Of a stretch of 64,000 bases of DNA, positions 48,461 through 52,286 are shown piece after piece. The notes under the pieces are model-generated. The model saw nothing but the letters and a program-made list of their open reading frames with translations, was not told the origin of the DNA and did not search any database. Made by a program: the position numbers and the translations under genes. Every line of letters starts with the position of its first letter. The stretch's first letter is position 1. Origin of the DNA: an uncultured Clostridia bacterium (lineage in GTDB: Bacteria > Bacillota > Clostridia > Lachnospirales > CAG-274); NCBI GenBank assembly GCA_947630475.1, contig CANRHR010000006.1, positions 86,870 to 150,869 of the forward strand. Reading direction: 5' to 3'.

Positions 48461-49279
48461 TTAGCTTAAGAGCTGAAGCACAGACTGTGGAGCCTGATTT
48501 GCCTGAGCAAGCATAGAAACGGCAGCCTGATTGATAACGTTAGCTGAAGTGATATTAGTCATTTCCTTAGCCATATCGGCATCTTCAATTCTTGAGTTTG
48601 CTTGGCTTAAGTTCTCACTGGCAGTTTCAAGAGAATTGTTGGTGTATTCAAGCCTGTTCTGAAGGGCTCCCAATGTAGCTCTGTAGGTTGTTATTGTTTC
48701 AAGTGCGCCATCGCAAGTAGTAATCATATTATTAGCATTAGTCTGATTTTTAACATCGCCGGATAAACCAATTCCTGTCTTGTCAATTTTTTCCAATTTA
48801 AGATCAATAGTTTGAGTTGCATTTGCTCCAACATGGAATTTAAGAGTTGTGGCATCATCACTCAATTTAAGTTTATTAAACTCAGCTCTTCCTGCCATAG
48901 AGTCAATTTCACTCATCAAATCTTGAACTTCTTTATCAATCTTCTCTCTGTCCTTTGAAACATTACTGTCGGTAGCGCTTTGAACAGCAAGCTCTCTGAT
49001 TCTTTGAACCATATTATCTATTTCGGCAACATATCCCTCAGCTGTCTGAACCAAAGAAGTCGCATCCTGCGCATTTTTGGAAGCCATATCAAGACCTCTG
49101 ATTTGAGCCTTCATTTTTTCGCTGATAGCCAAGCCTGCCGCATCATCAGCCGCTGAGTTGATTTTCTTGCCGCTTGATAATCTCTTGCTTGCCTTATCCT
49201 GCTTGTTTCCTACTGCCCTTAAGTTTCTGTTTGAATTTAAAGCCCTTGCGTTTGTGTTAATTACTGTTGAACTACTCAT
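48461..49279 (-). CDS. Flagellin
   Basis: 272 aa, short: mainly the conserved D0/D1 helices with a brief central region (about 140-185). N-terminus VINTNARALNSNRNL and KRLSSGKKINSAADDAAGLAISEKM; C-terminus ASENLSQANSRIEDADMAKEM and the SVLQLLS end are classic. It is exported by the flagellar type III system and polymerises into the filament. GGAGGGA precedes the ATG. The 5' leader holds two GGA motifs placed as CsrA sites, and csrA is the next gene upstream. Confidence 0.95.
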   Translation of the reverse strand: MSSSTVINTNARALNSNRNLRAVGNKQDKASKRLSSGKKINSAADDAAGLAISEKMKAQIRGLDMASKNAQDATSLVQTAEGYVAEIDNMVQRIRELAVQSATDSNVSKDREKIDKEVQDLMSEIDSMAGRAEFNKLKLSDDATTLKFHVGANATQTIDLKLEKIDKTGIGLSGDVKNQTNANNMITTCDGALETITTYRATLGALQNRLEYTNNSLETASENLSQANSRIEDADMAKEMTNITSANVINQAAVSMLAQANQAPQSVLQLLS

Positions 49280-49285
49280 AATAAA

Positions 49286-49324
49286 TCCCTCCGTTGATTA
49301 AATTTTACGCAAATCCGTTTGCGT
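49286..49324 (-). promoter_or_regulatory. Candidate CsrA-binding leader of the flagellin mRNA
   Basis: A perfect hairpin ACGCAAA/TTTGCGT presents a CGGA loop (49307-49324). The Shine-Dalgarno itself, AACGGAGGGAT (49286-49294), holds two more GGA motifs. This matches the arrangement known for the Bacillus hag leader, where CsrA bridges an upstream hairpin and the Shine-Dalgarno. Confidence 0.7.
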
Positions 49325-49374: not shown

Positions 49375-49632
49375 TTAAATATTTTTAATCTTAGGCTTTT
49401 TGTATCTGCCCTTCATTTTTCTTACCCTTTTAAGCTCCTCGGCGGCAGCCGAATCATTTTCAGCCATTCGTTCAAGATTCTTTTCATACACTTTAGAACG
49501 CACCACAGGTACTTCTTTAGGCACTTCTATAGACAGCCTTATACTGTCGGACCTTAAGCTGCTTGTATACTTAACAAAAACATCATCACCTATCTTTATA
49601 TATTCTCCTTCCTTGACTGTAAGCGTAAGCAT
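49375..49632 (-). CDS. csrA: CsrA translational regulator with C-terminal extension
   Basis: 85 aa; the first 55 match CsrA (LTLTVKEGEYIKIGDDVFVKY, LSIEVPKEVPVVRSKVYEK) and a basic tail of about 25 residues (RVRKMKGRYKKPKIKN) is extra. The RNA-contact Arg near position 44 of other CsrA proteins is kept (VVRSK) while the usual Arg at 6-7 is Val-Lys. It should bind GGA motifs in mRNA leaders. It lies 95 bases upstream of flagellin, its likely target. AAGGAGGAA precedes the ATG. No fliW is in the window. Confidence 0.87.
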   Translation of the reverse strand: MLTLTVKEGEYIKIGDDVFVKYTSSLRSDSIRLSIEVPKEVPVVRSKVYEKNLERMAENDSAAAEELKRVRKMKGRYKKPKIKNI

Positions 49633-49693: not shown

Positions 49694-49721
49694 ATGTAAC
49701 AATTTATAATGAATGTTACAT
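49694..49721. repeat. 28-bp inverted repeat, left site of the recombinase segment
   Basis: ATGTAACAAT, TTATAATG, AATGTTACAT: two inverted arms around a short centre. It matches the reverse complement of 50430-50457 at 26 of 28 positions, and the central TATAAT is identical. It lies between csrA and the recombinase gene. Confidence 0.85.
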
Positions 49722-49742
49722 TATTCAAGGAGGAACTTAATA

Positions 49743-50318
49743 ATGAAAACAGACCCTATAAAAAGTAAAAAAGATTTGAACAGACTTAAGCTTTATTTTG
49801 AGAAAAAAGGCAATATGCGTGACCTTGCGCTGATTGTGATAAGCGTAAACACGGGATTAAGATGCAGCGATATATTGGAGCTGAGATGGGAAGATGTGTA
49901 TGAATTTGATACAAAAAAATTTAAAGCCTACATTCACATTGTTGAAAAGAAAACAAAAAAAATTATTAAAATAAAGATGAATAAGGCTGTTATAGACTGC
50001 CTAAAAAAGCTTAAAGCCTATTACGGAAAAATACAAAAAGATGGGGTTTTGTTTAAAAGCCAGAAAGGAAAAAACAAAGCGATAAGCAGAATACAGATGT
50101 ACAGAATTTTAAAGCAGGCGGCAAAGCTTTTAAAGATACAGGGAAACATAGCCTGTCATTCCTTGAGGAAAACATTTGGCTACAACGCCTTTAAAAAGGG
50201 CGTTGCGCCTGCCGTTATTATGGAGCTTTTCAATCATTCGTCGTATGCCGTAACAAGACGATATTTAGGCATAGACCAAGATGAAAAGGATAAGGTTTTT
50301 ATGTCGCTTAATTTGTAG
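49743..50318 (+). CDS. Tyrosine recombinase, FimB/RecV-size
   Basis: 191 aa from the ATG at 49743, which has AAGGAGG nine bases upstream. It is a catalytic domain without the usual N-terminal arm. Catalytic residues are present: Arg in NTGLRCSDIL, Lys in the EKKTKKI hairpin, His and Arg in ACHSLRKTFG, His in LFNHSSYAV and the nucleophile Tyr in RRYLG. This size is typical of FimB/FimE and of Clostridioides RecV, which flip promoter segments controlling surface structures. It lies within a pair of 28-bp inverted repeats, between csrA and nagA. Confidence 0.88.
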   Translation: MKTDPIKSKKDLNRLKLYFEKKGNMRDLALIVISVNTGLRCSDILELRWEDVYEFDTKKFKAYIHIVEKKTKKIIKIKMNKAVIDCLKKLKAYYGKIQKDGVLFKSQKGKNKAISRIQMYRILKQAAKLLKIQGNIACHSLRKTFGYNAFKKGVAPAVIMELFNHSSYAVTRRYLGIDQDEKDKVFMSLNL

Positions 50319-50384
50319 TGTTTGGCTATGCTTTATTTGTATGCAAAAAATAAAAAAATTTTTTAAAAATTTTAAAAATAGGCG

Positions 50385-50414
50385 TTAAGTTTTTTTCGAT
50401 AATGACGATATAAT
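50385..50414 (+). promoter_or_regulatory. Candidate outward promoter inside the recombinase segment
   Basis: TTAAGT, 18-base spacer, TATAAT, pointing out through the right inverted repeat. In the present orientation it faces two hairpins and the convergent nagA gene. After inversion it would point into csrA. Confidence 0.45.
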
Positions 50415-50429
50415 AAGTGTAAGGCAAAA

Positions 50430-50457
50430 ATGTAACATTTATTATAGATTGTTACAT
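50430..50457. repeat. 28-bp inverted repeat, right site of the recombinase segment
   Basis: Plus strand ATGTAACATT, TATTATAG, ATTGTTACAT; the reverse complement matches 49694-49721 with two mismatches. The same two outer arms are present. Confidence 0.85.
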
Positions 50458-50474
50458 TTTTTTATTTTTATTAT

Positions 50475-50537
50475 AAAGCCACCGAAAAACCGATGGCTTT
50501 AGTATGCCTAAAAAAGTTCAAACAGAACTTTTAGGCA
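50475..50537 (-). terminator. Two terminator hairpins downstream of nagA
   Basis: Hairpins AAAGCCACCG/CGATGGCTTT (50475-50500) and TGCCTAAAA/TTTTAGGCA (50505-50537). They end nagA transcription and would also block transcripts coming from the recombinase segment. Confidence 0.7.
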
Positions 50538-50578
50538 GTATATTTTTCCAATTACAAAATTTATATTCATCTGTAAGG

Positions 50579-51931: not shown

Positions 51932-52286
51932 GGGGATGTAATGGTTTCGACGGGGATTTTGAAAGCAGAGTAAGCCATTCGCAGTCGGCGCCTGCGTATA
52001 AAGCCGAAAACTTTAAAAAATAAACGACGAAAATAATTTCGCATACGCAGCCTAATTTTAGGCTGCCGTCGGCGCTTGGTTTCCCGCAGCCAAGCACACC
52101 GGCGTCGACTTTTGCGGGGCACTTTATATACAAAGCTTTGAGTATATAAAAGATTTATGAAGCTACCCGACTTTTAAGCCTGCCGCTTGACGTCTTAGAA
52201 GGGGAATTTTAAATAAGCGGCTATGATGGAAGAAAGCTTTGCCGACTGATCTTCGGACAGGAGTTCGATTCTCCTCATCTCCACTA
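51932..52286 (+). ncRNA. ssrA: tmRNA
   Basis: The 5' end GGGGATGTAATGGTTTCGAC and the 3' end with GGAGTTCGATTCTCC and CATCTCCA form the tRNA-like domain; acceptor arms GGGGATG/CATCTCC pair fully with one G-U. Pseudoknot-like stems lie in between. The tag frame near 52023 reads NDENNFAYAA then stop, typical of a proteolysis tag; the codon before it is ATA, not the usual Ala codon, so the resume residue is uncertain. The genome has CTA instead of CCA after the discriminator, so the tail must be repaired or added. It releases stalled ribosomes together with SmpB. Confidence 0.96.

Follow-up and report, generated by a model that had tools for sequence, protein, structure and literature searches.

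The FimB and FimE proteins of Escherichia coli are tyrosine recombinases of about 190–200 amino acids which act by promoter inversion. The fim recombinase genes are described as adjoining the inverted segment, not as lying inside it (PMC2784873). In Salmonella, the recombinase gene hin is reported to lie within the inverted DNA (PMC2784873), and the H segment, which is about 1 kb long with 26-bp inverted sites, has a promoter that switches flagellin expression (PMC3798978). The RecV flagellar switch of Clostridioides difficile is a 154-bp segment with 21-bp repeats and controls the flgB operon. This segment is described as having no promoter inside and as acting after transcription initiation (PMC5386303), with Rho stopping the OFF transcripts (PMC7446863). 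cwpV, a working switch of the same species that is ON in about 5% of cells, was proposed to have an intrinsic terminator at the repeat junction in the OFF orientation only; its promoter is placed outside the 195-bp segment, and recV is described as not nearby (PMC2784873). Among invertons of a gut community, group 139 comprises 33 members, 32 of them from Clostridia, and is associated with a group of tyrosine recombinases; words starting with "flagell" are absent from the main text of that paper (PMC11892184).

The DNA analysed here is a 64,000-nucleotide stretch (the window) from an uncultured Clostridia bacterium of the order Lachnospirales. In it, a segment of 764 bp (positions 49694–50457) holds a recombinase gene between two 28-bp inverted sites and adjoins a csrA-like gene and a flagellin gene. 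The segment is probably a self-carried DNA inversion switch for csrA and flagellin, predicted to be flipped by its own tyrosine recombinase. As judged from sequence, the locus is a Hin-like flagellin switch with a tyrosine recombinase, whose flipping we infer by comparison between loci. It shares with Salmonella Hin a recombinase gene inside the inverting segment, a promoter (here recognized by its motif, likewise inside) and flagellin as the target, here a presumed one. Hin is a serine recombinase, whereas the enzyme of the window is a tyrosine recombinase of family PF00589; further differences are that the promoter is sigma-28-like, that csrA belongs to the presumed target operon, that there are several cassettes, and that the distal site resembles a terminator.

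The original prediction had drawn analogies with both RecV and fim. The RecV flagellar switch is alike in its tyrosine recombinase, inverted repeats and flagellar target, but the analogy was rejected, since the RecV segment is given as promoterless and acts after initiation (PMC5386303), with its recombinase elsewhere, whereas recombinase and promoter motif both lie inside the segment of the window. Moreover, the RecV repeats have no shared core, while the site arms in this genome are all alike. The fim analogy holds for the size of the tyrosine recombinase and for promoter inversion; however, the recombinase lies inside the segment, and its scores against the FimB and FimE subfamilies (PRK09870 and PRK09871), 35.4 and 45.1 bits, are far below the NCBIfam cut-offs of 221 and 222. 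Likeness to cwpV lies in the terminator predicted for the OFF orientation and in being mostly OFF, and likeness to group 139 in being a Clostridia inverton linked to a tyrosine recombinase (PMC11892184). In a literature search that covered titles and the beginnings of abstracts, with subscription papers mostly outside it, the design was undescribed among the matches listed.

The segment, its recombinase and its promoter

The features of the locus are collected in Table 1. As had been predicted, the recombinase gene lies inside the two sites and the central TATAAT is identical in both.

Table 1. Features of the segment and its surroundings (positions in the window)
Feature	Position	Strand	Remarks
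Flagellin gene, presumed target	48461..49279	-	272 aa; PF00669 and PF00700
Hairpin in the flagellin leader, loop CGGA; CsrA-binding site by prediction	49307..49324	-	fold z only -1.4 against shuffles
csrA-like gene, first gene of presumed target operon	49375..49632	-	PF02599, 57.9 bits
csrA-side recombination site	49694..49721	+	28 bp; arms 11 + core TATAAT + 11
Tyrosine recombinase gene, inside segment	49743..50318	+	191 aa; PF00589 E 1.8e-26; catalytic residues; fold
Predicted sigma-28-type promoter	50385..50411	+	TTAAG-N14-GACGATAT; points away from csrA (OFF)
Distal site hairpin and outside T-rich run, predicted terminator in OFF	50426..50473	+	
Distal recombination site	50430..50457	-	inverted copy, 26/28
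Two further hairpins past distal site	50474..50541	+	z -5.8

The identity of the two sites falls to 22/28 in direct register. Two site matches with no more than three mismatches are present in the window, against none expected from shuffles, and six in the whole genome, against none for the reversed-pattern control. This genome (G000) comprises 2.18 Mb in 48 contigs, and the window is part of contig C6. It encodes four recombinases of this type, on C6 (the window), C5 (C5a, 100% identical, and C5b, 66%) and C13 (81%); two more matches at 21–29% identity are other integrases. The exact-arm pattern ATGTAACA-N12-TGTTACAT yielded ten distinct sites, or five pairs, genome-wide and none with the reversed-pattern control. 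Eight of the ten lie in four csrA-flagellin loci and the other two in cassettes at the ends of contig C23. Across the four complete segments the inverted-register identity is 26, 28, 28 and 28 of 28, compared with 20–24 in direct register, so that each is flanked by inverted sites as in a phase-variation inversion switch. The site arms are alike across the cassettes of this genome. The six-base cores between the 11-base arms are TATAAT in C6 and C5a, TATAAC in C13 and TAATGA in C5b; they are equal within each locus and different between groups of loci, which is the pattern that a strand-exchange overlap would give.

The catalytic residues R-K-H-R-H-Y are complete in the window recombinase and conserved in 58–59 of 59 sequences, which together with the fold marks it as a site-specific recombinase of the kind found in phase-variation switches. 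The paralogs form one clade (support 100/100), and comparison of C6 with C13 (dN 0.105, dS 0.833) points to purifying selection.

The original prediction had placed a promoter of the form TTAAGT-N18-TATAAT in the segment. An outward-pointing candidate is indeed present, but those hexamers are not conserved: the sigma-70 reading was abandoned as TATAAT varies among the paralogs (TATATA in C5b, TATATT in C13), whereas GTTAAG...GACGATAT is kept in all four complete segments. The conserved element is likely a sigma-28-like promoter, as predicted from its near, though inexact (TAAG, final T), match to the sigma-28 (FliA/SigD) consensus TAAA / MCGATAa given for Butyrivibrio fibrisolvens (PMC3720852). 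A FliA gene is encoded in the genome (269.9 bits, cut-off 189.6). TTAAG-N13..17-GACGATAT occurs seven times genome-wide and its reversed control not at all; a looser scan with TTAA-N14..16-GMCGATA was too noisy (42 matches against 22 in the control) and was replaced by this tighter motif. The seven places are the four cassettes, the left end of C23 (C23L), a flagellin on C10 without a cassette and one place on C3.

The C10 locus (L145, G000:C10:51279-51914) comprises a flagellin with the same sigma-28-like promoter, and no csrA, recombinase or site was seen there; it looks like a cassette minus its switch, or a fixed ancestor. The copy on C3 (G000:C3:177974-178000, L147) lies upstream of a gene which by eye is membrane-acyltransferase-like.

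Inversion of the window segment in silico places the motif 107 nt upstream of csrA, which bears out the earlier suggestion that a flip would aim the promoter at csrA and flagellin. It had also been stated that no clear promoter precedes csrA in the present orientation. A weak sigma-70-like match is found there (GTTACA-N17-TATTAT, 9/12), although such matches hardly exceed chance (10 found, 6.0 +/- 2.5 in shuffles).

Paralogous cassettes and their orientation

All four complete segments adjoin a csrA-like gene and a flagellin. The fifth exact-arm site pair lies near both ends of contig C23, each of which runs into a partial cassette: the left end holds a recombinase end, promoter motif and site, and the right end (C23R) a site and promoter end. 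The genome thus contains at least six cassettes, four complete and two partial. Contig C25, which ends just upstream of a flagellin, may be the missing partner of a partial cassette.

Three complete segments, those of the window, C5a and C13, have the motif directed away from csrA (OFF). In C5b the promoter end faces csrA, with the motif 135 nt upstream of it (ON). C23L and C23R were scored OFF by flank homology, as csrA is missing at those contig ends. A flank of about 160 bp is common to the non-csrA side of C5b and to C23L and C23R (C23R is without 24 bases of it); it joins the recombinase-start end in C5b and the promoter end in C23L and C23R, with the break at the site. This end swap is the best evidence that such segments flip. 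Like the two orientations themselves, it was observed by comparing paralogous loci, not within the single locus of the window.

Seven flagellin-like genes were found in the genome, some of them without a cassette. With at least six cassettes, this makes a choice among flagellins likelier than an on/off switch of the whole flagellum; of the flagellar switch first proposed, the switch itself agrees with both orientations being present among paralogs, while its whole-flagellum scope does not fare as well.

Between C5a and C6 there are 4 differences in the 708 bases of the segment, compared with 17 in 258 for csrA (Fisher test p 2.4e-7) and 127 in 330 for mid-flagellin. The recombinase dS of 0.018, against 0.265 for csrA, suggests that the segment was recently exchanged or converted between the two loci. 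The csrA-flagellin spacer is identical (0/95 differ), so constraint outside genes exists too. Several near-identical copies and this possible exchange would also suit a small mobile element, with the inverted sites as its ends and a recombinase that carries the segment from place to place or swaps it. Such an element is nonetheless very unlikely: each complete copy sits at the same place beside csrA and flagellin and none elsewhere, the flanks are paralogous, and a promoter is conserved inside. An insertion sequence or transposon was likewise discarded; copies at unrelated places were not found, and the flank of C23 resembles that of C5b.

The distal site and the presumed target genes

By the inversion reading, the tyrosine recombinase would flip the DNA between the two sites. 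In the present, OFF orientation the promoter would face the distal site, where a hairpin and the T-run outside it would end transcription at once; in the ON orientation no T-run would stand behind the site, and csrA and flagellin would be transcribed. Terminators beyond the distal site had been part of the original prediction, and a hairpin with T-run at the site and two further hairpins are indeed predicted there. Farther along the window lies a tmRNA gene (51932-52284, + strand) with the tag peptide DENNFAYAA.

The distal and csrA-side junctions were compared at 17 loci that have both sites and csrA nearby, four in this genome and 13 in family f6 (see below). All 17 have the larger T-run distally (on average 6.3 T in the best 8, versus 2.1 at the csrA side), and 15 have the stronger hairpin there as well (-19.5 versus -12.5 kcal/mol on average). 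In the other two, the window and C5a, the csrA-side hairpin is slightly stronger and the T-run alone differs. It is therefore predicted from these junctions that transcription from the promoter halts at the recombination site in OFF and continues through it in ON. The terminator-like distal site could also mean that the palindromes are terminators or operators only and that the recombinase acts elsewhere. This is highly improbable: the sites match in inverted and not in direct register, the shared flank swaps ends exactly at the site, and small segments next to related recombinases in other genomes are bounded by sites of this kind too.

The product of the csrA-like gene is above the Pfam cut-off (57.9 bits against 27), but it does not reach the cut-off of the NCBIfam csrA equivalog TIGR00202 (40.9 against 70.1). 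The protein is predicted to hold back flagellin translation by binding a hairpin with a GGA in the leader. Such a hairpin, with CGGA or TGGA in the loop and a stem that varies in sequence without losing its pairing, is present in the flagellin leaders of C6, C5a, C13 and C5b, which also carry another GGA at the ribosome-binding site. The hairpin resembles the leader of Bacillus subtilis hag, which is bound by CsrA. Of the other leaders in the genome, that on C10 is similar, that on C25 is truncated where its contig stops, and at the C6b flagellin the hairpin is missing. A fifth csrA-like gene lies at C4:27973, downstream of a gene that by eye is fliW-like. Secreted-looking proteins with long Ser/Asp/Glu-rich repeats adjoin the C5b and C25 flagellins (L015:3043-4803; L139).

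Relatives in other genomes

Among 97 genomes from the family and the order, 36, this one included, encode a related recombinase (E <= 1e-20), and 55 regions around these genes were fetched, many of them cut by contig ends. By our own profiles, a flagellin was near the relative in only two of these regions, both from genus g33, one of them also with csrA. The exact-arm pattern is absent from 47 other genomes of the window's family and present in 12 of 295 genomes of the order, this one included. Where inverted site pairs occur in other genomes, the segments are 162–203 bp and the visible recombinase lies just outside, L090 excepted. These small switches (for example G001, G069, G091 and G051) belong to the same clade and share the 28/29-bp kind of site and a related recombinase, but their neighbours are other than flagellin except in G069. 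In G069, from another family, a classic small switch is directed towards a flagellin and two csrA-like genes and carries a sigma-28 motif, the only such match among 17 segments of other genomes (0.019 expected per segment). Among named genomes only two distant relative loci were found, and among viral contigs one. For a housekeeping protein, the closest named organisms among the 120 relatives listed are Candidatus Metalachnospira and Anaerotignum, at 64%.

A class-wide search of 391 genomes gave six with E <= 1e-40 and led to G176 of family f6. In G176 the architecture of the window occurs twice: at one locus the inverted sites around the recombinase match at 30/30, and at the other they are degenerate and were recognized by eye. 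Lachnospiraceae, Butyrivibrio and Blautia MAGs are among the named relatives of the f6 recombinase, whose own record carries the label Bacteroidales bacterium. A search of 397 genomes of f6 then recovered 28 recombinase loci in 26 genomes (E <= 1e-50), and 20 of these have csrA and/or flagellin in their 1.5-kb flanks (19 csrA, one flagellin only). By script, the recombinase lies inside inverted repeats in 14 of the 28 loci: 13 were flagged, and L208 was counted with them although a stray match hid its flag. The site pairs are perfect over the matched length in nine of the 14, as they are in three of the four complete copies in this genome, and sites differ between loci. Of the 20 csrA/flagellin loci, 17 allowed the promoter to be located, L198, L211 and L215 being unreadable for orientation; in all 17 it points away from csrA. 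Thirteen calls were made by pattern, which also matched in or near genes (L198, L210, L212, L219), and four by eye (L201, L206, L209, L212), the latter from a -10 of the CGAAATAT type or from a weaker -35. L214 and L218 differ in having the promoter at the start end of the recombinase.

The original prediction had looked to related genomes for the inverted orientation. It was found in C5b among the paralogs, but not in the 17 f6 loci or in G069. Overall, 23 of 24 orientations are OFF (f6 17/17, this genome 5/6, G069), with p 3e-6 against a 1:1 ratio for loci that are not independent. This speaks against a freely flipping switch and means that the switch is strongly OFF-biased or rarely flipping. 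It would also fit a former or nearly frozen switch, with rare inversion on an evolutionary scale, in which OFF is kept and the flagellin is silent or uses another promoter. The window's sites have diverged by two of 28 bases, and in one relative, the csrA-flagellin locus L211 (G954), the recombinase has an internal TAA stop, possibly a locked switch. A frozen switch is nevertheless unlikely, given that the recombinases are under purifying selection and most site pairs are perfect (three of four here, nine of 14 in f6); moreover, cwpV works although it, too, is described as mostly OFF (PMC2784873).

The preferred reading remains an inversion switch that is OFF-biased or rarely flips. Its extension to many cassettes is tentative, and we hold it as possible rather than probable. 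Each flagellin would have its own recombinase, sigma-28 promoter and CsrA brake; nearly all would be held OFF at a site doubling as a terminator, with one ON, and segments would be swapped or converted between loci of the same core. Immune responses and phages both have flagellin as a major target, and a self-contained switch that recurs in two families of the order would account for how such bacteria could choose among their flagellins. The design would combine a recombinase, near-identical arms, locus-specific cores, a flagellar-sigma promoter and a site that doubles as OFF terminator, and would be a second solution, with other recombinase chemistry, to the problem that Hin solves in Salmonella. 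If the many-cassette reading is true, this would be a common means of flagellar variation among the group's motile anaerobes.

L090 (G070) is the only one of the 55 regions with a recombinase-site-like inverted repeat on both flanks of the recombinase, one arm being degenerate. The imperfect repeats are about 800 bp apart, and flagellin was not found nearby; it is possibly a further case of a recombinase inside its segment. In family f1, three small switches (L065, L074, L078) carry a perfect TTGACA-N17-TATAAT instead of the sigma-28 motif, and they adjoin the recombinase. In L065 and L074 the recombinase, which may lie within the switched operon, is followed by a large secreted-looking protein.
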